Shown one piece after another: positions 5,325 to 64,000 of a stretch of 64,000 nucleotides of DNA. A program made the position numbers and the translations under genes. How positions within the stretch are numbered: the first letter of the stretch is position 1; each line of letters starts with the position of its first letter. The DNA is from Vibrio sp. YMD68. GTDB lineage: Bacteria; Pseudomonadota; Gammaproteobacteria; Enterobacterales; Vibrionaceae. Below the pieces are notes generated by a model that saw only the letters and a program-made list of their open reading frames with translations, searched no databases and had not been told where the DNA came from. The stretch spans positions 2,604,001-2,668,000 of the forward strand of contig NZ_CP124614.1 in the NCBI RefSeq assembly GCF_029958905.1, given 5' to 3'.

Positions 5325-5795
5325 CTAGCAATCCGTATCGGTATTCGAGCCTCTGATCTCACCTAGATTTTCCCTTGGTAAAGTGGTTTCAAAGCTCGGA
5401 ACAATAATGACGCCTTGTAAAAAGGTGAGTAAGCCAGAAAATTGATATTCAAAATTAACCACTTCCGATCTTACATACCGAATATCCAAAAATACTTCCG
5501 GATCCACAGAGGGATCACCGGTGATCACAGCCCCTGTTTCGTTCAAATATTCCAAAGACAAATTGGCCGACGTAAACCCTCCAGGGGCATTTCTCGGGAC
5601 CGCTAACCCCGGTATTTCATCTTTGTCTGCCACATTACATACCACTCCCAATCTAGCCGCGACGCGCGTCATTTCGTTAATCAGCTGCAGCGAGTACATG
5701 TAGCGCCCGACTTCAATCACCCCCAGAATCAACACCAATAAGGCGCTTGAAATGAGCGTAAACTCTATGATCGTGATGCCTCGTTGGCTTCTCAT
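5325..5795 (-). CDS. tadF: TadE/TadF-like pseudopilin
   Basis: 156 aa. The N-terminus has the prepilin-like cleavage motif G-ITIIEF followed by a hydrophobic helix (about residues 10-30), then an exported domain. This is the TadE-like family; such proteins are cleaved by TadV and enter the pilus machine as minor pseudopilins. The ATG overlaps the TGA of the upstream gene (ATGA), so the two are coupled. TadE versus TadF naming is by position and is uncertain. Confidence 0.85.
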   Translation of the reverse strand: MRSQRGITIIEFTLISSALLVLILGVIEVGRYMYSLQLINEMTRVAARLGVVCNVADKDEIPGLAVPRNAPGGFTSANLSLEYLNETGAVITGDPSVDPEVFLDIRYVRSEVVNFEYQFSGLLTFLQGVIIVPSFETTLPRENLGEIRGSNTDTDC

Positions 5796-6223
5796 GGTGC
5801 CGTCCTCATCATTGCAGACGTATTAAGTGGGACACCAAAGTTAAAACTGGAAGAAAATAGGTTTGTTATAGGAGTATAGGTATGATTTATGGTGACCGTC
5901 ACATATTGATTGGAATGATTGATAGAAACATCACTGGGGGTAAGGCCTTGAACTAAAGGGGTACTCGAATCACCAATCAAGGCGGTTCCATACACCACCA
6001 TATTTTTTATTTCGGTTTCATCGGCAATGTGATCGTAACTGGATGTACCCGATACATTGGTCGTTGCGTATCTCGCTCCATTTCTCGCCATTTTATTCAA
6101 CGTATTATAATCAATCAGAGCATTACCAAACTCCGTCACCCCACCAATAATTAAGACTAAAATAGGAACCGTAATGAGAAACTCTACCGCAGCAATGCCT
6201 TTCTGCTTTCGTTGTATGCTCAT
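5792..6223 (-). CDS. tadE: TadE-like pseudopilin
   Basis: 143 aa. Starts with a short basic leader, then G-IAAVEF and a hydrophobic helix typical of TadE, followed by an exported domain with RNGARYATTN. A longer reading frame to 6490 exists but its extra N-terminus lies inside tadG in another frame. I set the start at ATG 6223, which has GGAG upstream and directly follows the tadG stop (TGA-T-ATG). Predicted TadV substrate and minor pseudopilin. Confidence 0.88.
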   Translation of the reverse strand: MSIQRKQKGIAAVEFLITVPILVLIIGGVTEFGNALIDYNTLNKMARNGARYATTNVSGTSSYDHIADETEIKNMVVYGTALIGDSSTPLVQGLTPSDVSINHSNQYVTVTINHTYTPITNLFSSSFNFGVPLNTSAMMRTAP

Positions 6224-52850: not shown

Positions 52851-55800
52851 ATGGTAGATAGAGAGCAGAGTGCACAGGGCATGTATACTCCGGAATTGGA
52901 GCATGATGCGTGTGGTATCGGTTTTGTTGCTCACTTAAAAAACCGTAAATCTCATGATGTAGTAACTCAAGCACTCGATATGCTAGCGCGTATGGAACAC
53001 CGTGGTGGTCAAGGTTGTGATCCTTGCTCAGGTGACGGTGCGGGTATTTTGCTGCAAAAGCCTCATGAATTTTTACTCGAAGAATCAGTATCGCTGGGTA
53101 TCAAGCTACCTTCTTTCGAAAAATACGGTGTTGGTGTTGTACTTTTCCCTAAAGATGAACATAAACGCGCACAGTGTCGTGACATCCTTGAGCGTAATGC
53201 TCAACGCTTGGAACTGGAAGTTTTAGGCTACCGCGAACTGCCTACAGACAATTCTATGATTGGTGCTGATCCATTAAGCACTGAGCCTCAATTTGAACAT
53301 GTCTTCATTTCAGGTGGTCCAAGTACTACACCTGAAGAACTAGAGCGTAAGCTTTATGTACTGCGTAACTATACCGTTCGAGTTTGTCTAGAAAGTGTGT
53401 CTAACATTGGGGATGATTTCTACATCAACTCAATGTCATACAAGACTCTGGTTTACAAAGGCCAGTTAACGACGGAACAGGTTCCTCAATATTTCCTGGA
53501 TCTTCAAAATCCAACGATGGTAACCGCTTTAGCTTTGGTTCACTCTCGTTTCTCTACCAATACATTCCCTCGCTGGCGTCTAGCTCAACCTTTCCGTTAC
53601 ATCGCTCATAACGGCGAAATCAATACGGTTCGTGGTAACTTGAACTGGATGAAAGCCCGTGAAGCGATCATTGAATCTGATCTTTTCACCAAAGCTGAAA
53701 TCGACATGCTTCTTCCTATTTGTCAGGAAGGCAGTTCAGATTCATCAAACTTTGATATGGCACTTGAGCTCCTAGTTTTATCTGGTCGTAGCCTGCCACA
53801 TGCCTTGATGATGATGATTCCTGAAGCATGGCAAGAAAACAAAAACATGGATCCAACTCGTCGTGCGTTCTATCAATACCACGCGAACGTGATGGAACCG
53901 TGGGATGGCCCTGCGTCTGTTTGTTTCACTGATGGTGTTCAAGTTGGTGCAACGCTTGACCGTAACGGTCTGCGCCCTTCTCGCTACACAGTGACAAAAG
54001 ACGACTTCCTAGTGATGGCGTCTGAGTCTGGCGTTGTTGAAATCGCACCAGAAAACGTTGAATACCGTGGTCGTTTGCAGCCTGGCCGTATCTTCGTTGC
54101 TGACTTAGAGCAAGGTCGTATCATTTCTGATGAAGAAGTGAAAGATGGCATCGCAAGTGCACAACCTTATGAAAAGTGGGTTGAAGAGAATCTTCTGAGC
54201 TTGAAAAAGCTGCCCGATGCAAGTAACGAATTTAACCAACCTTCTCCAGAAAAGCTTCTACACAAACAACAATCGTTTGGTGTGAGTTCTGAAGAAGTGA
54301 ATGAGATCATTCTTCCTCTTGCGAAAACAGGCTACGAGCCACTTTCTGCAATGGGTGCTGACTGGCCGCTAGCGATTCTTTCCCATCAATCGCAACACCT
54401 TTCAAACTACTTCAAACAGTTGTTTGCACAAGTCACTAACCCACCGATCGACCCGATTCGTGAGCGTATGGTTATGTCTCTGAACACTTACCTAGGTAAA
54501 GATCAGAACCTACTGGCTGAAACACCTGAACACTGTCAAAAAGTAGAACTTGAATCTCCTGTTCTTTCTAACTCAGAGTTAGAAAAACTGCGTGCAATCG
54601 ATAACGAGCATCTTCAATCGAAGACACTGGATATCGTATTCCAAGCAAATGGGGACGAAGGTAAGTTAGAGCGTGCGCTTAAGCGTATCTGCCAATATGC
54701 GGAAGACGCAGTGATTGATGGCTACTCTATCATTCTACTGACTGACCGTGCGGTTAACTCTAACCATGCTGCTATCCCAGCAATGCTTGCAGTTGGCGCA
54801 GTTCATCACCACTTAATCCGTAAAGGCCTACGTGCTAAGTGTGACATCGTTGTTGAAACGGGCGACGCTCGTGAAACACACCACTTTGCCACGCTTATCG
54901 GTTACGGTGCGAACGCAGTCAATCCATACCTCGTTATTGAAACGATTGTTGAATTGCAACGTATTAAGAAACTCGATCCAACCGTACACCCACGTGAGTT
55001 ATTCGATAACTACCGTAAAGGCGTGAACGGTGGTCTACTGAAGATTTTCTCTAAGATGGGGATCTCTACGCTGCAGTCTTACCACGGTGCACAAATCTTT
55101 GAAGCACTTGGTATCAGCAAATCCGTAGTTGAAAAATACTTCACTGGTACTGTTTCACGTATCCAAGGTTTAACGATCGACGATATCGCGAAAGAAGTAC
55201 TGGTTCGTCACCGTGTTGGTTACCCTGCTCGTGAAATCCCAGCTCAGATTCTTGATGTGGGTGGTGTTTACCAGTGGAAACAACGTGGCGAGAAACACTT
55301 ATTTAATCCAGAAACGATTTCTCTACTTCAAGAGTCGACGCGTAACAAAGATTACGAACAGTTCAAGAAGTACGCAAAAGCCGTTGATGATCAAGGCGAT
55401 AACGCAGCAACATTGCGTAGCCAATTAGCGTTCATTAAGAACCCAGCAGGCTCTATTCCTCTTGCAGAAGTAGAACCGATTGAAAAAATTCTGACTCGTT
55501 TTGCAACCGGTGCCATGAGCTTTGGTTCAATCTCGCATGAGGCTCACTCAACACTGGCTGTTGCCATGAACCGTATCGGTGCGAAATCTAACTCAGGCGA
55601 AGGGGGTGAAGACCCTGTTCGTTTCGAGCGTAAAGAAAATGGCGATTGGGAACGTTCAGCAATCAAGCAGGTTGCTTCGGGCCGTTTCGGTGTGACTTCT
55701 TACTACCTATCGAATGCTGATGAACTTCAGATTAAGATGGCTCAAGGCGCGAAACCTGGCGAAGGTGGTCAACTACCTGGCGATAAAGTCGATGACTGGA

Positions 55801-57398
55801 TCGGTGCCACTCGTCACTCGACTCCGGGCGTAGGTCTTATTTCGCCACCGCCACACCACGATATCTACTCAATCGAAGATTTGGCTCAGCTTATCTACGA
55901 TCTGAAAAACGCAAACCGTGCAGGCCGAGTGAACGTGAAACTCGTATCGGAAGCGGGCGTGGGTACGATCGCATCGGGTGTTGCTAAAGCGAAAGCTGAT
56001 GTTGTTCTTATTGCTGGTTTTGATGGCGGTACGGGGGCATCACCAATGTCATCTATTCGTCACACCGGTCTTCCTTGGGAGCTTGGTCTAGCTGAAACTC
56101 ACCAAACACTACTGAAAAACGGCTTACGTAACCGTATCGTTGTTCAGTCTGATGGTCAGATGAAAACCCCACGTGACCTTGCAGTAGCAACGTTACTTGG
56201 CGCTGAAGAATGGGGCGTAGCAACAGCAGCATTGGTTGTTGAAGGCTGTATCATGATGCGTAAGTGTCATAAGAATACCTGTCCTGTTGGTATTGCAACA
56301 CAGAACAAAACACTGCGTGAGCGTTTTGATGGCCGCGTAGAAGACGTCGTGACTTTCTTCCAATACATGGCTGAAGGTTTACGTGAAGTGATGGCTGAAC
56401 TCGGCTTCCGAACTATTGATGAAATGGTTGGTCAATCTCAGAAACTGAAAGTTCGTGAAGACATCGGTCACTGGAAATACAAAAACCTAGATCTGACGCC
56501 AGTTCTTCACATAGAACAAGCTCGTGCGGAAGATGGTGTGTATAACCAAACACAGCAAAATCACAACCTAGAAGATGTTCTAGACCGTAAGTTGATTCAA
56601 GCTGCAATTCCAGCACTTGAGAGAGGCGAAGGCGTGAATGCGACCTTCCCTATCATCAACACGGATCGCTCTGCGGGTACCATGCTGTCGAACGAAATCT
56701 CGAAGATCTACAAAGACCAAGGTCTACCACAACCAATGAACGTCAAGTTCCACGGCAGTGCCGGCCAATCTTTTGGTGCATTCCTGGCGAAAGGCGTAAA
56801 ATTCGAAGTGGAAGGTGACGCGAACGATTACTGGGGTAAAGGTCTGTCTGGCGGTACGTTAGTACTGTATCCAGATGCCAAATCGACGATCGTCGCAGAA
56901 GATAACATCGTGGTGGGTAACGTCTGTTTCTACGGTGCGACGTCTGGTGAATCTTACATCCGCGGTATGGCTGGTGAACGTTTCTGTGTTCGTAACTCGG
57001 GCGCGAAAGTCGTTGTTGAAGGTGTCGGTGATCACGGCTGTGAATACATGACTGGCGGTGTCGCTGTTATTCTTGGTTCAACAGGTCGTAACTTTGCTGC
57101 CGGCATGAGTGGCGGTGTCGCTTATGTTTGGGACAAGGCAGGAGACTTCAATACTAAGTTAAACGCTGAACTTGTCGACCTAGATCCAATCGAAGCAGAA
57201 GATAAAACGCTGCTTAAAGAAATGCTAACTAAGCATGTTGAATTCACAGGAAGTGAAGTTGCTCAGTCTTTCTTAAACAACTTTGAGGCGAACATTGCGT
57301 CACTGGTGAAAGTCATGCCACGTGATTACAAAGCGGTTCTTCAAAGACGTAAAGCTGAAGCACAACAGGCACAAACGGAACAAGTGGAGGCAGTATAA
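52851..57398 (+). CDS. gltB: glutamate synthase large subunit
   Basis: 1515 aa. A 20-residue propeptide precedes the N-terminal nucleophile Cys21 (EHDACGIGF) of the class II amidotransferase domain (about 21-420). The synthase barrel includes GEGGEDPVRFE and GGTGASPMSSIRHTG. The 3Fe-4S cysteines lie in CIMMRKCHKNTCPVG. The C-terminal GXGXG beta-helix has GVGDHGCEYMTGGVAVILG. With GltD it makes two glutamates from glutamine and 2-oxoglutarate. Stop and gltD start overlap (TAATG). Confidence 0.97.
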   Translation: MVDREQSAQGMYTPELEHDACGIGFVAHLKNRKSHDVVTQALDMLARMEHRGGQGCDPCSGDGAGILLQKPHEFLLEESVSLGIKLPSFEKYGVGVVLFPKDEHKRAQCRDILERNAQRLELEVLGYRELPTDNSMIGADPLSTEPQFEHVFISGGPSTTPEELERKLYVLRNYTVRVCLESVSNIGDDFYINSMSYKTLVYKGQLTTEQVPQYFLDLQNPTMVTALALVHSRFSTNTFPRWRLAQPFRYIAHNGEINTVRGNLNWMKAREAIIESDLFTKAEIDMLLPICQEGSSDSSNFDMALELLVLSGRSLPHALMMMIPEAWQENKNMDPTRRAFYQYHANVMEPWDGPASVCFTDGVQVGATLDRNGLRPSRYTVTKDDFLVMASESGVVEIAPENVEYRGRLQPGRIFVADLEQGRIISDEEVKDGIASAQPYEKWVEENLLSLKKLPDASNEFNQPSPEKLLHKQQSFGVSSEEVNEIILPLAKTGYEPLSAMGADWPLAILSHQSQHLSNYFKQLFAQVTNPPIDPIRERMVMSLNTYLGKDQNLLAETPEHCQKVELESPVLSNSELEKLRAIDNEHLQSKTLDIVFQANGDEGKLERALKRICQYAEDAVIDGYSIILLTDRAVNSNHAAIPAMLAVGAVHHHLIRKGLRAKCDIVVETGDARETHHFATLIGYGANAVNPYLVIETIVELQRIKKLDPTVHPRELFDNYRKGVNGGLLKIFSKMGISTLQSYHGAQIFEALGISKSVVEKYFTGTVSRIQGLTIDDIAKEVLVRHRVGYPAREIPAQILDVGGVYQWKQRGEKHLFNPETISLLQESTRNKDYEQFKKYAKAVDDQGDNAATLRSQLAFIKNPAGSIPLAEVEPIEKILTRFATGAMSFGSISHEAHSTLAVAMNRIGAKSNSGEGGEDPVRFERKENGDWERSAIKQVASGRFGVTSYYLSNADELQIKMAQGAKPGEGGQLPGDKVDDWIGATRHSTPGVGLISPPPHHDIYSIEDLAQLIYDLKNANRAGRVNVKLVSEAGVGTIASGVAKAKADVVLIAGFDGGTGASPMSSIRHTGLPWELGLAETHQTLLKNGLRNRIVVQSDGQMKTPRDLAVATLLGAEEWGVATAALVVEGCIMMRKCHKNTCPVGIATQNKTLRERFDGRVEDVVTFFQYMAEGLREVMAELGFRTIDEMVGQSQKLKVREDIGHWKYKNLDLTPVLHIEQARAEDGVYNQTQQNHNLEDVLDRKLIQAAIPALERGEGVNATFPIINTDRSAGTMLSNEISKIYKDQGLPQPMNVKFHGSAGQSFGAFLAKGVKFEVEGDANDYWGKGLSGGTLVLYPDAKSTIVAEDNIVVGNVCFYGATSGESYIRGMAGERFCVRNSGAKVVVEGVGDHGCEYMTGGVAVILGSTGRNFAAGMSGGVAYVWDKAGDFNTKLNAELVDLDPIEAEDKTLLKEMLTKHVEFTGSEVAQSFLNNFEANIASLVKVMPRDYKAVLQRRKAEAQQAQTEQVEAV

Positions 57399-58867
57399 TG
57401 GGTAAGCCTACTGGATTTTTAGAACATGGTCGTGAGCTTCCAAAGAAGTTAGACCCATCAGTGCGTATTGAAGACAACAAAGAATTCGTTCTTAACGACG
57501 AATTTGGTGAGAAAATTGGTACGCAGGCCTCTCGTTGTATGGACTGTGGTGTTCCGTTTTGTCATAACGGATGCCCAATCGGTAACATTATTCCAGAATT
57601 TAACGATGCGGTTTACCGTGACAGCTGGGAAGAAGCTTGGAACATCTTAAGCTCAACCAATAATTTCCCTGAATTTACAGGTCGAGTGTGTCCTGCTCCT
57701 TGTGAAAGTGCTTGTGTACTGGGTATCAACCAAGACCCAATCACCATCTGCAACATCGAGAAAACCATTGTAGAAACTGCGTACCGTGAAGGGTACGCAA
57801 AACCGAAAACACCACGTTCTCGTACAGGAAAAACCATTGCAATTATCGGTTCTGGTCCTGCTGGTTTAGCCGCCGCTGAGCAGCTAAATAGTGCGGGTCA
57901 CTCTGTGACAGTATTTGAACGTGACGAAAAAGTTGGCGGCCTACTTCGGTTCGGTATTCCAGATTTCAAACTGGGTATGGACGTGATTGATCGCAAAATC
58001 AATCTAATGGCAGAAGCGGGCGTTGAGTTTAAAGTTAACCAGCACATCGGTGTTGATGTTAACGCTCAACAGCTACGTCAAGAGTTTGATGTGGTATTGC
58101 TAACCGGTGGTTCTACGGTCCCACGCGACTTACCAATCCCAGGTCGTGAGCTGAAAGGCGTTCACTTTGCCATGGAGTTCCTTGGCCAAAATAACCGTCG
58201 TGCCAATGATCTCGACCTAAAAACGGAAGAGATTCACGCTAAAGATAAGCACGTTGTGGTTATCGGTGGTGGTGATACTGGTTCAGACTGTGTGGGGACA
58301 TCAAACCGCCATAGAGCAGCAAGCATTACTCAGGTAGAGATCATGCCGGTCCCACCAGAAAAACGCCCTGCTAATATGCCTTGGCCTCAATATCCAATGA
58401 TCATGAAAACGACCACTTCACATGAAGAAGGCTGTGAACGTCATTGGAATATTCTGACAAAAGAATTTATCGGTAACGATAAAGGCGAAGTCACAGGTTT
58501 ACGTATTGCAGACATTGTATGGCAAGACGCCAAACCAGGTGAGCGCCCAGGATTTGACGAAGTGGCTAACTCTGAGCGTGTGATTCCGTGTGATATGGCA
58601 TTCCTAGCGATGGGCTTCTTGCACCCTGAGCCAACCGGTGTCCTAGCTCAGCTCGACATTAAACTGGATGATCGTGGTAACGTAGCTTCTGAAGGCTACG
58701 CAACCAACCAGAAAGGTGTTTTCGCTGCTGGTGATATGCGTACAGGCCAGTCTCTCGTAGTTCGTTGTATTAACGAAGGTCGTGAATGTGCCATTGCTAT
58801 TGATAACTTCTTGATGGGTAACTCCAACTTAGAAGCGAAAGCCGATTCATTAATGCTCGCTAACTAG
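57398..58867 (+). CDS. gltD: glutamate synthase small subunit
   Basis: 489 aa. N-terminal iron-sulphur cysteines ([32 protein letters not shown]), FAD-binding [13 protein letters not shown] and NADPH-binding [13 protein letters not shown]. It passes electrons from NADPH to GltB. One-base overlap with gltB; operon ends in a terminator. Confidence 0.97.
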
Positions 58868-58945
58868 GCAAGCATTAATGAGGAGGTAATCACACGATTT
58901 CTGTCTGTTTACCTCTATCAGACCTATCACATCACTTATGATATT

Positions 58946-58975
58946 AAGCCAGCACTCGATGCTGGCTTTTTTTGT
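58946..58975 (+). terminator. terminator of gltBD
   Basis: Stem AAGCCAGCA / TGCTGGCTT, loop CTCGA, followed by TTTTTT. The rest of 58976-59279 is A+T-rich, with no gene seen; it likely holds the promoter of the second gltB. Confidence 0.9.
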
Positions 58976-59279
58976 TTTTCCTCTCCCAAAAACACACAAA
59001 TCATGTTAGTAAAATGTAAATAAACCATTCTTATCTTCATGAATTAAAAGTACATTATCAGAGTATTACGTGGTAAATCTCACTACAACATGATATTTAT
59101 CCAATAACTTGACCTTTTTTACAATAACCTATATTTTGTGAATCAATCGATATCAGAATTGATAAAATTTGTTAACTCTAGAAGGCATTTGATTGCATAT
59201 CTAAATACACTTATAACAACAATCATGAGTAGTTAGTCATTTACTGTCTGGATGACAGAGAAGCAAAGGGAGAATTGCA

Positions 59280-60368
59280 ATGGCTTTATATGATCCAAGT
59301 CTTGAGAAAGATAACTGTGGGTTTGGTTTGATCGCGCATATGGAAGGCGAGCCAAGCCACAAACTCGTTCGCACCGCCATTTCTGCATTAGACCGCATGA
59401 CCCACCGAGGTGGTATAGCCGCCGATGGAAAGACAGGAGATGGGTGTGGACTGCTGCTACAAAAACCCGACAGTTACCTGCGCCTCATCGCTGAAGAACA
59501 AGGCTTTAACCTCAGCCGTCAATACGCGATTGGGATGATCTTTTTTAGTCAAGACAGCAACAAATATGAGCGTGCCAAAGCAATCATCAACAGCGAACTG
59601 GCAAAAGAAACACTGACCGTCTCAGGTTGGCGCGTGGTGCCAACTAACTCAGACGTTCTCGGCCCTATCGCGAATGAATCCTTGCCCAACATCCAACAAG
59701 TCTTTGTTTCGGCTCCAGCGGGTTGGCGAGAAAGAGACATAGAAAGACGCTTGTACATCGCGCGTCGACGCATTGAAAAACAGATCACAGACGATAACGA
59801 GTTTTATATCTGTAGCTTATCAACACAAGTTATGGTGTATAAAGGGCTATGTATGCCGGCGGATCTTCCTCGGTTTTATCTCGATCTTGCCGATCTTAGA
59901 ATGGAATCGGCCATTTGCTTATTCCACCAACGTTTCTCTACTAATACTCAGCCTCGCTGGCCATTAGCACAGCCTTTTCGCTACCTTGCTCATAATGGTG
60001 AGATCAATACCATTGAGGGTAATCGTCAATGGGCGAAAGCACGTGCTTATAAGTTTTCATCGCCACTGCTGCCAGATCTTCAAACCGCCGCTCCTTTTGT
60101 TAATGAAACAGGATCCGACTCATCTAGCCTAGATAACATGCTTGATCTCTTTTTAGCAGGAGGCATGGATGTATTCAGAGCAATGAGAATGCTTGTGCCG
60201 CCCGCTTGGCAAAACCACCCAGATATGGATCCTGATCTTCGCGCCTTCTATGATTTCAACTCCAAACACATGGAACCTTGGGATGGACCAGCAGGCATTG
60301 TTTTATCTGATGGGCGATACGCTGCCTGTAATCTCGACCGAAACGGTCTACGTCCAGCTCGCTATGTC
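59280..60368 (+). pseudogene. gltB2: second glutamate synthase large-subunit gene, cut by a mobile element
   Basis: 363 codons of a second GltB, much closer to E. coli GltB than the intact copy: LYDPSLEKDNCGFGLIAH with nucleophile Cys13, then HRGGIAADGKTGDGCGLLLQ and FHQRFSTNTQPRWPLAQPF. The homology stops exactly after NLDRNGLRPARYV, where E. coli GltB continues for over 1100 residues. The frame then runs 20 codons into foreign DNA and stops at 60428. Only most of the amidotransferase domain remains, so the gene is inactivated unless the element excises. The rest should lie beyond the right edge. Confidence 0.93.
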
Positions 60369-60373
60369 TGTAA

Positions 60374-60443
60374 AGGGACTAGAGATATGAACAATGTAAG
60401 GAAGTTAGGGATTATCCCGATATCATAGGGATTGTCTCGGTAT
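60374..60443 (+). repeat. repeat array at the element end (putative transposase sites)
   Basis: Three related units: AGGGACTAGAGATAT (60374-60388), AGGGATTATCCCGATAT (60407-60423) and AGGGATTGTCTCGGTAT (60427-60443). The last two are set 20 bp apart. A fourth, inverted unit (AGGGATTTATC on the complement) is at 60735-60745. This resembles MuA/TnsB-type end sites. Confidence 0.6.
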
Positions 60444-60578
60444 TATTTGTGCCTGTGATAGCCTTGTAGAGCCCGTGAGAAAAGGGTTGGCGGTGGTTTG
60501 GGTTGGTGGGCTTTAGGTATTTAAAAAAGATTGCCTTGCCTTTACATTAGCTTTTACTGAAATGAGCAATAACGGGAC

Positions 60579-60778
60579 AAACGGACGAAAAGGGATGTTT
60601 TTAGCCTATCAAAGTGAGCACTTCATTAAGATGTCGCAATGTGTTTAAACCATGTTTAAATGACTGATTTTTAAAACAATAAAATATTTAAACGAGAATG
60701 AAAAAGCCAGAAATATGTACTTTAAACCCATCCAGATAAATCCCTATCGTCCGTTTCTGATATCAAGCGTCCATTTCT
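60579..60778. repeat. CGTCCGTTT direct and inverted repeats near the element end
   Basis: CGTCCGTTTCT (60748-60758) and CGTCCATTTCT (60768-60778) are direct copies 20 bp apart. AAACGGACGAAAAGGGAT (60579-60596) is an inverted copy of ATCCCTATCGTCCGTTT (60740-60756) with one base inserted. Confidence 0.55.
60643..60693. repeat. GTTTAAAC-type motif cluster, element left control region
   Basis: GTTTAAAC (60643-60650), GTTTAAAT (60654-60661) and ATTTAAAC (60686-60693). The same three words recur at 63772-63810. Confidence 0.5.
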
Positions 60779-60973
60779 TTTAAGTTGCTGATTTATAACA
60801 ATAAAATATCGTTCTCTATTTGATAGTGGTTGGTCTAGCAAAATCCCTTAAAATATAAATTGTTAAATTAATGTTAACGTTTCGGGCGCGTTAATTTAAA
60901 CAAAGCTAGTTATTTTTCCTTTCTGAATATTGGTTTTACATTGGTTAAATATACACCCAATGGAGCCAAGGAA

Positions 60974-61168
60974 ATGGGACGTTTATGTAAGGTTGACTAC
61001 TTGCCAGATAGCCTCAGAACTAAGGTTATTCGTTTGATTCGAACCTTAAACCATGGTGAGGCATTAAGGGCTGTTAATTCTTTGATTGAAGAGCACGGCC
61101 TCCCTGATAGTTCAAAATTGACTAGATCATCACTTAGCCGATACCGAGTCGATAAGCTGCATATGTAG
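60974..61168 (+). CDS. short Mu gp27 (DUF3486) N-terminus-like protein
   Basis: 64 aa from ATG 60974 with GGAGCCAAGGA upstream. MGRLCKVDYLPDSLRTKV, then AVNSLIEEHGLPDSSKL and TRSSLSRYRVD follow the DUF3486 pattern (MGR..xxD.LP...R ... N.L....G ... SRS.L.RY). Full Mu gp27 is about three times longer, so only its N-terminal, DNA-binding-like part is here. It is a small basic protein, perhaps a stand-alone regulator or small-terminase-like DNA binder. Confidence 0.7.
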   Translation: MGRLCKVDYLPDSLRTKVIRLIRTLNHGEALRAVNSLIEEHGLPDSSKLTRSSLSRYRVDKLHM

Positions 61169-61466
61169 TATTGGTTGTTAGTTCAAAATTAACGCTCGAT
61201 TAAGGAAGCTTAAAAGAAAGACCTCTTTCTTTTAAGTTTTATTTTCTAAGTTGTTGGATTTTATATGATTTAATTCGATTCCTCTGACTTTTGAAAGAAA
61301 GAGTAATCACTTAAAGGTGTTAGGTTGATGTAGGGTTTTAGGTGGAAGAAAAGCACCTAAAATTTGTCGTTATAAAATTAATGGTTTGTATTATTAATTT
61401 ATATTGCTCATTTTGGTAGTCCGAAAGTTGTTGACGAACTGCAACCTTTCAAACTAAGATAAAAAC

Positions 61467-61486
61467 ACGCTAGCAAAATCTAGCGT
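61467..61486 (+). other. hairpin in the leader of the Ash-like ORF
   Basis: ACGCTAG / CTAGCGT perfect 7-base arms with loop CAAAAT, 45 bp upstream of the Ash-like start codon. Confidence 0.5.
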
Positions 61487-61523
61487 CAGGATTGCAACCC
61501 TGTTATTATCTGAGGCGCACAAT

Positions 61524-61546
61524 ACACGCCTATGCGTGTTTTTTTA
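61524..61546 (+). terminator. terminator-like hairpin overlapping the Ash-like ORF start
   Basis: ACACGC-CTAT-GCGTGT followed by six T. It overlaps the start codon of the 43-aa ORF, so it could attenuate transcription into the downstream genes. Confidence 0.6.
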
Positions 61547-61663
61547 TTTGTGCGTAAGCTTACTATGGTGGGCTTAGTGGAGCTAACTTCGGTTAGGCCG
61601 TTTCTTGGATACGGTTGTTGCAACTCTGCTAAGTTCGCCACCAGTGAGATTGCAACCTCCTGA
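61532..61663 (+). CDS. Ash-like micro-ORF
   Basis: 43 aa. LTMVGLVELTSVRPFLGYGC, then AKFATSEIATS resembles the MVG...GxP.....GY....ATxEI pattern of phage Ash (P4 ash/Icd-like) products. It has no good ribosome site and its stop overlaps the next frame. Such sequences are often conserved as RNA rather than as protein. Confidence 0.45.
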   Translation: MRVFLFVRKLTMVGLVELTSVRPFLGYGCCNSAKFATSEIATS

Positions 61664-61695
61664 TGGCGATATATAAAATATCCAAGGAGGCCATC

Positions 61696-61977
61696 ATGCC
61701 TAACACTAATCTAAACTCCGCAAAACTAAATCCAGAATCTATCTCACTAGACGAACTCTTTGACCTATCTGACGGTGTTCTAGCATCCCCAGAAAGACTA
61801 CTTGATCTATTAGGCAATCTAAGCAGCCTAGTGGGTGAATATTCATCATTAGGTGGTGAACAGCGCATATCGGTTGGAGCTTTGGAACTGCTAAGTGGTT
61901 TGATTCACTTCGCTAACGGATTAAACTCTAAGTTAGACGCTTTAGCTGCTTTAGAGAGGGTTAGTCATGAAAAGTGA
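61696..61977 (+). CDS. element protein of unknown function
   Basis: 93 aa from ATG 61696, with AAGGAGG 5 bases upstream; an upstream ATG at 61663 lacks this. Acidic and leucine/serine-rich, helical: ISLDELFDLSDGVLASPERL, LLGNLSSLVGEYSSL and ALELLSGLIHFANGLNSKL. Ends 11 bases inside the next gene, so they are coupled. Not recognised. Confidence 0.75.
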   Translation: MPNTNLNSAKLNPESISLDELFDLSDGVLASPERLLDLLGNLSSLVGEYSSLGGEQRISVGALELLSGLIHFANGLNSKLDALAALERVSHEK

Positions 61978-62296
61978 GCGATTAACTTCTAAAGAATCTT
62001 ACGAGCTGGCTAACTTGGTTCGTAATATTGGTGTTAAAAATGTTTTGTTGATCCTTAGAAAAGCAGCATCACCGAAAAAAGCAAAGAGGCTTTATAAGGT
62101 TCAACAGCTACCAACTGATATTAGAGCGCGAGTGGCGGTAATGCTTTCATCAAGGCGGTACACTCAAAAAGATATTCTTTCTTATGTGAACAATGAAATT
62201 GAGCATAGAGGGTTAGCAGATAAGTTTAAGATCTCTCGAACCGCTTTTAATCGCTTTCTGAATGAAGAAATATATCCGAGCTTGTCAAACCAGTAA
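61967..62296 (+). CDS. second gp27 (DUF3486)-like protein
   Basis: 109 aa. N-terminal 40 residues are a helical extension (SYELANLVRNIGVKNVLLIL). From about 42 it repeats the pattern of the 64-aa protein upstream: LYKVQQLPTDIRARVAVML, ILSYVNNEIEHRGLADKFKI and SRTAFNRFL. The two are likely paralogues. Basic, possible DNA binder. Followed by a terminator. Confidence 0.7.
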   Translation: MKSERLTSKESYELANLVRNIGVKNVLLILRKAASPKKAKRLYKVQQLPTDIRARVAVMLSSRRYTQKDILSYVNNEIEHRGLADKFKISRTAFNRFLNEEIYPSLSNQ

Positions 62297-62351
62297 ATAT
62301 CGCTTACATTAAATACGCAGGTAACATTTATTCATCTTGTCGATGAAATTC

Positions 62352-62377
62352 AAAGCCCCTTTAAAGGGGCTTTTTCA
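62352..62377 (+). terminator. terminator after the gp27-like gene
   Basis: Perfect palindromic AAAGCCCCTTT / AAAGGGGCTTT followed by TT(C)A. Confidence 0.9.
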
Positions 62378-62457
62378 TATCTATAAAACCCCCATCCCAC
62401 TATAACAATTTTTAAATAATCCGCGTTACTCCGTATTTATTAGGTATGTATATTAAT

Positions 62458-62961
62458 ATGGATTTATCAAAGCAAACGCGGACTTCCATAATGGCATGTG
62501 AAATAAATCAGAATATCTTGATGATGGGTTTCTTGCTTGATCGTTTTTTTGGTATCCAACCAACACCAGAGCTAGAAGCTGCATTAAAAGAAGATATGCT
62601 ATCCATGTTCTCAGGTACTAAAGCTGATGAAACAGCCCAGATTTATTTTGGCAAGCTAAAAACATTCAAGGCTAATGTAACCGAGTTAATGATCGTTCAA
62701 GATTGTCTGGCTGGAAAAGGAGTGGCAAGCATTTCTAGTGAGTTCGGCATGAGTTCCCAATCAGTCTATCGGGTTTTAAAGAAGCACAAATGCAAACCTA
62801 AGAAAGTAACTCGACTTGTACATGGCTTCGCTTTCTATCATCGAACGGTTGAGCATGAGTTAATTAGGTTAATGCATGCAGACGGAGTTTCAATTAAAGA
62901 TATAGCTCTGAATAAAAACATTAGAGAAACCACAGTAAAAGAAATATTAAGGGTTAAATAG
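62458..62961 (+). CDS. helix-turn-helix protein of the element
   Basis: 167 aa from ATG 62458 (ATG 62446 is an alternative; neither has a well-placed ribosome site). VASISSEFGMSSQSVYRVLKKH (about 90-112) is a clear HTH. A second HTH-like unit, VSIKDIALNKNIRETTVKEIL, is at the C-terminus. N-terminal part helical. Probably a phage-type regulator; it lies 2 bp before the Mor-like gene. Confidence 0.75.
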   Translation: MDLSKQTRTSIMACEINQNILMMGFLLDRFFGIQPTPELEAALKEDMLSMFSGTKADETAQIYFGKLKTFKANVTELMIVQDCLAGKGVASISSEFGMSSQSVYRVLKKHKCKPKKVTRLVHGFAFYHRTVEHELIRLMHADGVSIKDIALNKNIRETTVKEILRVK

Positions 62962-62963
62962 CA

Positions 62964-63347
62964 ATGTCGATTGAATGGTTAGATATAGCAAAAAAAGATA
63001 CAGCCTTAGATGTTGTCATGGATTTAATTAAAATGAACCCATCCAAAACAAAAGTTTTTGATGAGTTTCTATCTCGCTCAAAAGAGTTCAATCTTGATGA
63101 AAGAGATACTGTTAAATTTATTTGCTTAATGGTTTCTGTGTTTGGTGGTAGTCAAATATATTTACCTAGTGATGATACATTTAAGCAAGCAGTGACATAT
63201 AGACTTATTTATAAAGAGTTCAAAGGTAACAATGCTAACGAGTTATCTCGAAAATATGGAATGTCTGTTATTGCAATTCAAAGAGTTATTAAGGCTTGTA
63301 GAAAGGCTGACGCTGAAGTTAGAAAAGCAATGGGTGGAGTTAAGTAA
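62964..63347 (+). CDS. Mor-family transcription activator
   Basis: 127 aa. FGGSQIYLPSDDTFKQAV, then YKEFKGNNANELSRKYGMSV and AIQRVIKACRKAD match the Mor/C activator family (FGGxxxYxP ... R...I...F.G.N..ELA..YG.S...V..I). Mu Mor turns on the middle promoter, C the late promoters. The presence of this protein supports a Mu-like identity and a regulated structural region downstream. Confidence 0.82.
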   Translation: MSIEWLDIAKKDTALDVVMDLIKMNPSKTKVFDEFLSRSKEFNLDERDTVKFICLMVSVFGGSQIYLPSDDTFKQAVTYRLIYKEFKGNNANELSRKYGMSVIAIQRVIKACRKADAEVRKAMGGVK

Positions 63348-63719
63348 ATGTATTTACACAATCTAATAGACGGCGTTCTTATTAATGGCGAACTGGTTAA
63401 GACAGTATCAATAGAACCATTATCAAATTCATCTAGAAATACCGTAGTCGATTTAGTTGATGCTCAACACCAGCATCTAGTTAATATGCCCGAGTTCAAA
63501 CCTGTCAATGACAAGCATACTCTAGCGATTAAGGGTTTAATGCTTCTTAATGAAAACGCAGCTGCTTCTATTAGTTGTCTTGGCAAGTATCGAGTCACTT
63601 TTACATATGATGATATTTGCGATTACAAGATAACGGCTCAAGACTGGAATGTAATTTTAACTGCAAGTATGGCGGTTTCAGAATTGCATTCAGGCAATAA
63701 CGGGAAAATGCTCGCGTAG
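63348..63719 (+). CDS. element protein of unknown function
   Basis: 123 aa; ATG directly follows the stop of the Mor-like gene, with GGAG 8-10 bases upstream. SLGKYRVTFTYDDICDYKIT-like text near 77-95 (SCLGKYRVTFTYDDICDY) and the N-terminal GVLINGELVKTVSIEPLSN suggest a beta-rich fold. Not recognised. Confidence 0.75.
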   Translation: MYLHNLIDGVLINGELVKTVSIEPLSNSSRNTVVDLVDAQHQHLVNMPEFKPVNDKHTLAIKGLMLLNENAAASISCLGKYRVTFTYDDICDYKITAQDWNVILTASMAVSELHSGNNGKMLA

Positions 63720-63771
63720 CGCGTTGTATTGAAGCTTTCCGATTTGGTTGAGCATTGGCTCAAAAGAAAAT

Positions 63772-63810
63772 GTTTAAATCAATATAGAGCGATTTAAACG
63801 TAGTTTAAAC
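63772..63810. repeat. GTTTAAAC-type motif cluster before the I-like gene
   Basis: GTTTAAAT (63772-63779), ATTTAAAC (63792-63799) and GTTTAAAC (63803-63810), followed by ATGG. The same words as at 60643-60693, and CCATGTTTAAA is shared in inverted orientation. Candidate binding sites for an element regulator. Confidence 0.55.
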
Positions 63811-63829
63811 ATGGTATGAGGCTAAAGTT

Positions 63830-64000
63830 ATGCCCGTTACAGCGTTATGTAAAGAATTAGACGAAAAAGCAAGTCAGTGGGTGCAGATTCTACCCAGTGG
63901 CCCTGACATCAAAGGTTTGGATGGTCGCAGTTGGGTTTTGAGAAATCCTAAAGCTATCCTACACGCCTTTCATGAAATGAAAGTCCCTATGGTTATTGAC
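63830..64000 (+). CDS. Mu I-like phage protease/scaffold (5' part)
   Basis: 57 codons are visible; the gene runs off the right edge. WVQILPSGPDIKGLDGRSWV followed by LRNPKAILHAF matches the start of Mu gene I-type proteins (W.QLLPAG.F.GRDGR.W.L.dP..vi), which are head maturation protease and scaffold. GAGG lies 9-10 bases before the ATG. It implies that head genes follow. Confidence 0.8.
   Translation, partial: MPVTALCKELDEKASQWVQILPSGPDIKGLDGRSWVLRNPKAILHAFHEMKVPMVID

Follow-up and report, generated by a model that had tools for sequence, protein, structure and literature searches.

The glutamate synthase gene gltB2 of Vibrio sp. YMD68 is cut short near the end of a 64,000-nucleotide stretch of contig NZ_CP124614.1 (hereafter, the window), and is followed by an element with Mu-type genes in an unorthodox order. 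The locus raises the question of what this element is and how it could have moved. Two options had been put forward in an earlier note on the window: that the transposase module lies at the other end, or that this is a satellite or rearranged element. With good confidence, we interpret the element as a member of a family of transposable phage satellites that depend on a helper and make hybrid virions. Judged from the sequence, the satellite combines Mu-type ends, unrelated insertion sites with 5-bp duplications, and a constant complement of regulators and virion genes; the function of the latter in virions is presumed.

Structure of the insertion in gltB2

The sequence was extended past the window in the same genome. 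The reading frame of gltB2, which starts at 59280, is cut after codon 363, at 60368, precisely where its homology had been noted to stop, and the element begins with TG at 60369. The right end is a CA-3' at 67461, so that the element totals 7,093 bp (window coordinates 60369-67461; L003:370-7462), with the last ~3.5 kb past the window end. The CA terminus, a second ATGTC (found at 67462-67466) and the exact resumption of gltB2 at codon 364 had all been anticipated. Rejoining the flanks with a single ATGTC restores an uninterrupted 1,487-amino acid (aa) GltB2 frame, 42% identical over 1,514 alignment positions to the first GltB of the window. The two glutamate synthase large-subunit genes lie close together (52851-60428) with gltD between them, and it is the second that the element breaks.

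The gene content of the window copy was assigned by a profile scan (Pfam, PHROG) of 10 open reading frames (ORFs), and the features are collected in Table 1. The gp27 N-terminus-like genes, the Mor-family gene and the start of the Mu I-type protease gene that the earlier note had read from the letters were recovered, and no repressor, A or B gene was recognised ahead of the head genes, as it had stated. The same scan recognised no integrase, terminase large subunit, portal, sheath or baseplate gene, and the recommended search past the window for a DDE transposase and a B-type ATPase yielded neither. Because the element ends 3.5 kb beyond the window without a recognised transposase, a transposase module at its other end is excluded. 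In the suggested comparison of gene order with Mu-like phages, the capsid and tape measure genes adjoin in the satellite, versus seven annotated genes between them in DMS3 and ten ORFs listed between them in G068p, a Mu-like phage described below.

That the element is an autonomous transposon, its transposase hidden unrecognised among the small helix-turn-helix (HTH) proteins, is in our view highly improbable. Several DNA-binding proteins do lack a known role. However, the plus-strand ORFs before the structural genes do not exceed 198 aa in the copies compared, or 134 aa in the list for the Aeromonas sobria copy; a gene-by-gene scan of the window copy returned no convincing transposase or recombinase family besides HTH-type models; and the ends are of phage type.

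A family of seven copies and its capsid lineage

A search of 148 genomes of the genus identified a second copy in genome G024 (7,047 bp, duplication CTCGG), in which the tape measure gene is intact and encodes 594 aa. Genome G288 carries two copies (7,075 bp with ATAGC and 7,082 bp with TGCGT) that are 99.86% identical over 7,082 columns. Further copies were found in G151 (7,023 bp, CCCAT), in a Shewanella-type IMG/VR record (L034; 7,082 bp, ACCGA) and in A. sobria (G585; 7,551 bp, TCCTG), where the gene hit is, to judge from the ORFs, a putative kefB. All seven copies have TG...CA ends and a 5-bp duplication, their insertion sites are unrelated, and they share a core gene order within 7.0-7.6 kb, with ORF sets similar to that of the window copy by size and place. 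As six more copies show the same ~7-kb core order, each with a target duplication of its own, a one-off rearrangement is excluded, and it is the satellite part of the earlier alternative that is borne out. A fluoride riboswitch was noted in the flank of the G151 satellite (L073:13357-13422).

The capsid protein was used to trace the distribution of the family. At E 1e-60 or better it was matched in 29 of 329 Vibrionaceae genomes; the satellite type (70-100% identical) is present in four of these 329, as five copies (the window copy, G024, two in G288, and G151), and the remaining matches listed show 40-47% identity. The satellite was found in one of 75 genomes of the family of A. sobria, and in two of 394 genomes of the order. 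At E 1e-40 or better, 175 proteins matched; among the 120 listed, 18 clusters are 65-100% identical and the other 102 at most 49%. The source names of the 18 clusters are Vibrio, Shewanella, Aeromonas, Photobacterium and Agarivorans, and the architecture was verified in the seven copies, the other clusters of the clade being known from the capsid protein alone. In a 64-row capsid tree, the 20 satellite-type rows (labelled as such at 65% identity or more) are separated from all others by a branch with support 100/99; the clade is 40-49% identical to phage capsids. In collections of annotated phages and plasmids, the capsid protein has matches in 214 phage and 56 plasmid records, all below 60% identity. 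Scans of viral contigs with the capsid protein returned a single record (IMGVR_UViG_2843904799_000001), and a first scan of genome contigs gave no match.

The capsid and protease genes of the satellites are, by their substitution patterns, under purifying selection: the ratio of non-synonymous to synonymous substitution rates (dN/dS) between the window and G024 copies is 0.092 for the capsid and 0.091 for the protease gene, with most of the distant pairs saturated. Relatives of the phage P4 immunity RNAs, C4 and isrK, scored above cut-off in all six satellite loci scanned (window, L026, L071, L073, L034 and L080); a scan of 35 kb of genome G068, covering the left and middle portions of phage G068p, reported neither. 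A type II hammerhead ribozyme was observed inside this phage (L030:1920-1990; Rfam 60.1 bits).

These results bear on whether the element is a decayed or deletion-derived Mu-like prophage, a natural mini-Mu in which the ends were retained and the middle was deleted. The protease, capsid, Mor and tape measure proteins all have homologues in Mu-like phages, part of the tape measure gene, 689 bp long, shows 84% identity to phage DNA, and lesions occur in four of the seven copies. On the other hand, size and core order are constant although the capsid proteins of the copies differ by up to 32%, all belong to one capsid clade apart from the phages, the dN/dS of about 0.09 for the window-G024 pair indicates constraint, and the C4 and isrK RNAs set the satellites apart from the scanned part of G068p. 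As a one-off event this origin is refuted by the recurrence; it may apply only to the ancestor of the family, and as an account of the element we judge it very unlikely.

Mu-like phages as probable partners

Five Mu-like phages were compared with the satellites: G068p (31,700 bp, duplication CTGAC), G288p (32,459 bp, TTGTT), two in G151 (33,131 bp, TTCAC; 32,558 bp, ATCGC) and G103p (TCGAC). Ten G068p proteins match the repressor, A, B, late activator, TerS, TerL, portal, protease, sheath and tail chaperone families. At nucleotides 20-27 of both ends of the window copy lies the site TGAACAAT, a likely transposase-binding site, and TGNNCA is found at nucleotides 20-25 of all 24 ends of the seven satellites and five phages. 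For some ends this site was partly selected for: a pattern containing GAACAA served to locate the left ends of G068p, G288p and the satellite of G151, and a score that includes TGAACAAT served to locate the ends of G151p1, G151p2 and G103p. Each of these was confirmed by a matching 5-bp duplication and, among several candidate right ends, the one most like the other ends was chosen. For the window, G024, G288, L034 and A. sobria satellites, end placement relied on alignment, on the duplication or on other end patterns.

The left ends resemble those of the resident phages. Over the left 60 bp, the G288 satellites match their resident phage at 79.0%, versus 62.9-66.1% for the other four phages, and the G151 satellite matches its two resident phages at 83.6%, versus 59.7-74.2% for the other three; over 100 bp the values are 66.7% in G288 (others 57.1-59.3%) and 74.0% in G151 (others 54.9-66.3%). 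Exchange seems to affect the left end of the satellite, since the G288 copies align to the window copy only from nucleotide 174 onward, and G024 is 71% identical to the window copy in the first 800 bp versus 93% in the other aligned parts. Because the ends are of phage design and the left end is most like the resident phage in both testable genomes, movement of the satellite in trans by the transposition proteins of a Mu-like phage is strongly supported. Neither a Mu-type transposase gene (PF02914) nor a second gpT gene was found in G024 or A. sobria, and the transposition enzyme there probably came from outside with a visiting phage. In G288, the identical split of the tape measure frame in both copies indicates that a copy bearing this lesion probably moved, unless later conversion spread it.

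The Shewanella-type satellite interrupts the A gene of a Mu-like phage. At one of its ends it is met by an A frame that matches DDE_2 (E 1.4e-110), from the other an open stretch of 123 codons leads on, and the record also carries a B gene and a second gpT gene. This record, IMGVR_UViG_2843904799_000001, is listed as one 40-kb virus; it comprises phage and satellite, with the A gene split between L034:12937-14814 and ~5499-5876 and its C-terminal portion thereby set apart. By such an insertion the satellites may cripple their partner. The copy can be cited for another interpretation, namely that the element is a defence or interference device whose capsid, protease and tape measure proteins poison the assembly of Mu-like phages while spread is incidental; interference with phage tails by a satellite-encoded protein is described in PMC12987554. 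We consider this unlikely as the main role, because the genomes without a resident helper and the phage-matched left ends point to selection on transfer, and PADLOC returned weak hits only, all in HTH-type proteins; interference and transfer are not mutually exclusive.

Sites of the type TTTAAAC form a further correspondence. In Mu, a C-dependent late promoter precedes gene I. The box CGATTTAAAC-nnn-GTTTAAACATGGT is present closely upstream of the protease gene in four of the six satellites examined (window, G288a, G151 and L034), with two or three changes in those of A. sobria and G024, and it occurs upstream of the protease gene in both phages examined. Three TTTAAAC-type sites within 60 bp, counted anywhere in the element, are present in five of six satellites and one of two phages, compared with 0-2 of 500 first-order resamples for satellites and 0 of 200 for phages. 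The A. sobria satellite and phage G288p failed this control, and the cluster in G024 is that of the left end.

The features of the window copy are given below. No ORF corresponding to the 75-aa protein was listed at the same place in the other copies compared. The 109-aa protein is 41% identical over 69 aa to TerS of G068p. The tape measure frame of the window copy is interrupted by one in-frame stop, leaving 403 aa and a 149-aa downstream ORF.

Table 1. Coordinates and supporting matches of the satellite features, numbered from the first nucleotide of the window
Feature	Position	Strand	Evidence or remark
Left target duplication ATGTC (5 bp) in gltB2	60364..60368	.	right copy outside window
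Element, in-window part	60369..64000	+	TG...CA ends, ATGTC either side, second copy in G024
Terminal TGAACAAT site, element nt 20-27	60388..60395	+	same site at nt 20-27 of right end
TTTAAAC pair, left end	60643..60660	.	similar pair near left end of both Mu-like phages examined
75-aa protein, gp27 N-terminal HTH-like	60941..61168	+	PF11985 6.1e-5 (below Pfam cut-off), phrog_426 9.1e-7
isrK RNA (P4 seqA type)	61467..61544	+	Rfam RF01394, 64.6 bits, E 9.2e-13
C4 antisense RNA (P4 CI type)	61561..61645	+	Rfam RF01695, 66.9 bits, E 4.7e-12
93-aa protein without family	61696..61977	+	148-161-aa ORF at this position in G024, G288b, G151, L034
109-aa DNA-binding protein, only N-terminal HTH of gp27 (terminase small subunit)	61967..62296	+	PF11985 2.1e-8
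171-aa protein, two HTH regions, middle Mor-like	62446..62961	+
Mor-family transcription activator	62964..63347	+	PF08765 1.1e-17, phrog_532 5e-17
123-aa protein (phrog_15948), probable tail assembly chaperone	63348..63719	+	AlphaFold2 fold
TTTAAAC box CGATTTAAAC-nnn-GTTTAAACATGGT	63772..63811	+	close upstream of protease gene
Mu I-type head protease/scaffold gene	63830..64654	+	PF10123 8.4e-51; runs past window end at 64000
gpT capsid gene	64657..65559	+	PF10124 7.9e-103
Tape measure gene	65607..67391	+	phrog_973 1.8e-61 and 3.3e-12

The AlphaFold2 model of the 123-aa protein (pLDDT 89.9) has Mu FS-gp41 among its BFVD matches, and resembles PDB 3klu and 5ir0, the latter a protein of the V. 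cholerae satellite PLE. PDB 5IR0 is named as the tail assembly chaperone (TAC) of PLE1 in PMC12987554. The 123-aa protein of the IMG/VR record satellite is identical to P0131 of Shewanella khirikhana. In the phage collection searched, the sole match was in an isolate of ICP1, a lytic V. cholerae phage (2017_Mat_K, MW794173.1; gene 2017MatK_0120, L078:9995-10366, 44% identity), which may have taken the gene up from a satellite; a scan of viral contigs with the protein gave no match. In public records, clusters P0123, P0125 and P0126 of this protein bear the name 6-phospho-beta-glucosidase, which is unlikely to suit its size and predicted fold.

A cycle for the proposed satellite can be outlined as follows. 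In the quiet state, the P4-type CI/seqA RNA pair would stop early transcription until a Mu-like phage infects the cell or is induced. The satellite Mor-family activator, perhaps together with a phage regulator reading the shared TTTAAAC sites, would then switch on the protease, capsid and tape measure genes, and the satellite would replicate by transposition. For the heads the satellite would use the gpT and protease that it encodes, and its tape measure, around which the tails would be assembled, and its chaperone would likewise be its own; terminase, portal, sheath and baseplate would be supplied by the phage. Packaging would begin at the phage-like left end, and the hybrid particle would enter the next cell. 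The head size and packaging assumed here are conjectural. As an addition to the satellite reading, it is conceivable, though we hold it tentatively, that the own capsid forms smaller heads for ~7 kb that exclude the phage genome, as other satellites achieve by remodelling. The narrow range of 7.0-7.6 kb in seven copies and the separate capsid lineage are consistent with this; however, Mu-type packaging includes flanking host DNA, so that element size need not follow head size, and the tape measure is not shortened.

Several observations weigh against the interpretation as a functional, helper-dependent satellite. A structural gene is broken in four of the seven copies: the tape measure in the window copy and in both copies of G288, where the protease frame is shortened as well, and the capsid frame in G151. 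The tape measure of G024, with 594 aa, is no shorter than those of the phages (580 and 599 aa), and a role as a tail shortener was rejected on the grounds of this equal length. The right ends do not follow the resident phages: in the 60-bp comparison the resident phage ranks last for the G288 satellites (58.1% versus 65.6-72.6%), and the G151 satellite has no preference (57.1% versus 52.5-58.7%). In YMD68 itself, a single distant PF02914 gene (G000:C2:1347254-1347934, E 7.3e-38) and no gpT gene besides that of the satellite were found; as the end scan gave nothing convincing, a matching helper in this genome was rejected. In the phages, ~230 bp separate the TTTAAAC box from the protease ORF downstream of it, and what looks by eye like a terminator hairpin falls within this interval; the phage box may not be the promoter of that gene, and because of this distance and hairpin we do not claim it to be the same promoter as in the satellite. 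For the 123-aa model, Foldseek gave no match at E 1e-3 or better (best PDB match E 0.74), and when the protein was compared by hhalign with 94 ORFs from two phages, the highest probability was 2.8%, the probable assignment as a tail assembly chaperone being a call from the predicted fold alone.

Comparison with known phage satellites

By anatomy, the family would be a phage satellite that integrates in a way known satellites are said to lack. It is a discrete, recurring element without the mobility and virion genes that a phage can supply, as satellites in general are; an integrase was not among the genes recognised, and its seven insertion sites differ. According to PMC10803314, all known satellites share site-specific integration by an integrase of their own. 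A search by title and abstract of the open-licence literature found no satellite of transposable or Mu-like phages, an absence which is not proof; PMC10689766, as far as its accessible text goes, concerns another satellite type. A 2024 review of mobilizable elements (PMC11389934) names P4-like satellites, PICI, cfPICI, PLE, PICMI, VEIMEs and tycheposons, and the terms 'transposable phage' and 'Mu-like' are absent from its available text. The family may be an undescribed kind of phage satellite.

If this is correct, transposable phages have parasites too, and the presence of gpT head genes beside a Mor gene without a nearby transposase is accounted for. The satellite would be a natural counterpart of mini-Mu and, as a further satellite with its own tape measure, would bear on why satellites replace that protein. 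The swapping of left ends between satellite and resident phage would make helper tracking directly testable.

Capsid-forming phage-inducible chromosomal islands (cf-PICI) encode their own capsid proteins and use helper tails. The present element likewise has its own capsid genes (PF10123, PF10124), and differs in that no integrase is recognised, seven unrelated sites are used, and its length is 7 kb versus an average of 14 kb (PMC10803314). Some cf-PICIs carry putative tmp genes, according to the legend of Extended Data Fig. 10 in PMC12987554. The PLE (phage-inducible chromosomal island-like elements) provide a second parallel: PLE11 forms chimeric tails with its own tape measure protein and encodes a TAC (PMC12987554). 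An own tape measure is common to both, and the model of the 123-aa protein, a putative chaperone by its fold only, resembles the PLE protein 5IR0. The PLE, of ~18 kb, parasitise a virulent phage (PMC10803314) and remodel phage coat proteins (PMC10945586), whereas the satellite here has its own gpT and protease and a Mu-like partner.

With P4-like satellites the family shares the C4 and isrK RNAs, of CI/seqA type, for which an immunity role is predicted. The hallmarks of P4 are its integrase, Psu, Delta and Sid, and none of these was recognised among the 10 ORFs of the element. The Rfam C4 and isrK models detect relatives of the P4 CI/seqA immunity RNAs (PMC10111431). The phage-inducible chromosomal minimalist islands (PICMI) are, like this family, small satellites of Vibrionaceae; they are described as having int, alpA and prim genes, a location at fis and no capsid remodelling genes (PMC10803314), whereas int, alpA and prim were not recognised here and the insertion is in gltB2.

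The Mu-like phages themselves have in common with the satellite the TG...CA ends, the 5-bp duplication, the end sites, the Mor, I and T homologues and the TTTAAAC sites; they differ by their size (31.7-33.1 kb versus 7 kb) and by the repressor, A, B, TerL, portal, sheath and baseplate genes, none of which is recognised in the satellite. On balance, though less firmly than the satellite reading itself, we favour a separate class of satellites on transposable phages, which would use the phage transposase for near-anywhere insertion and replication, swap left ends with the resident phage, be governed by a P4-type RNA switch, and form hybrid virions with their own shell, protease, chaperone and tape measure.

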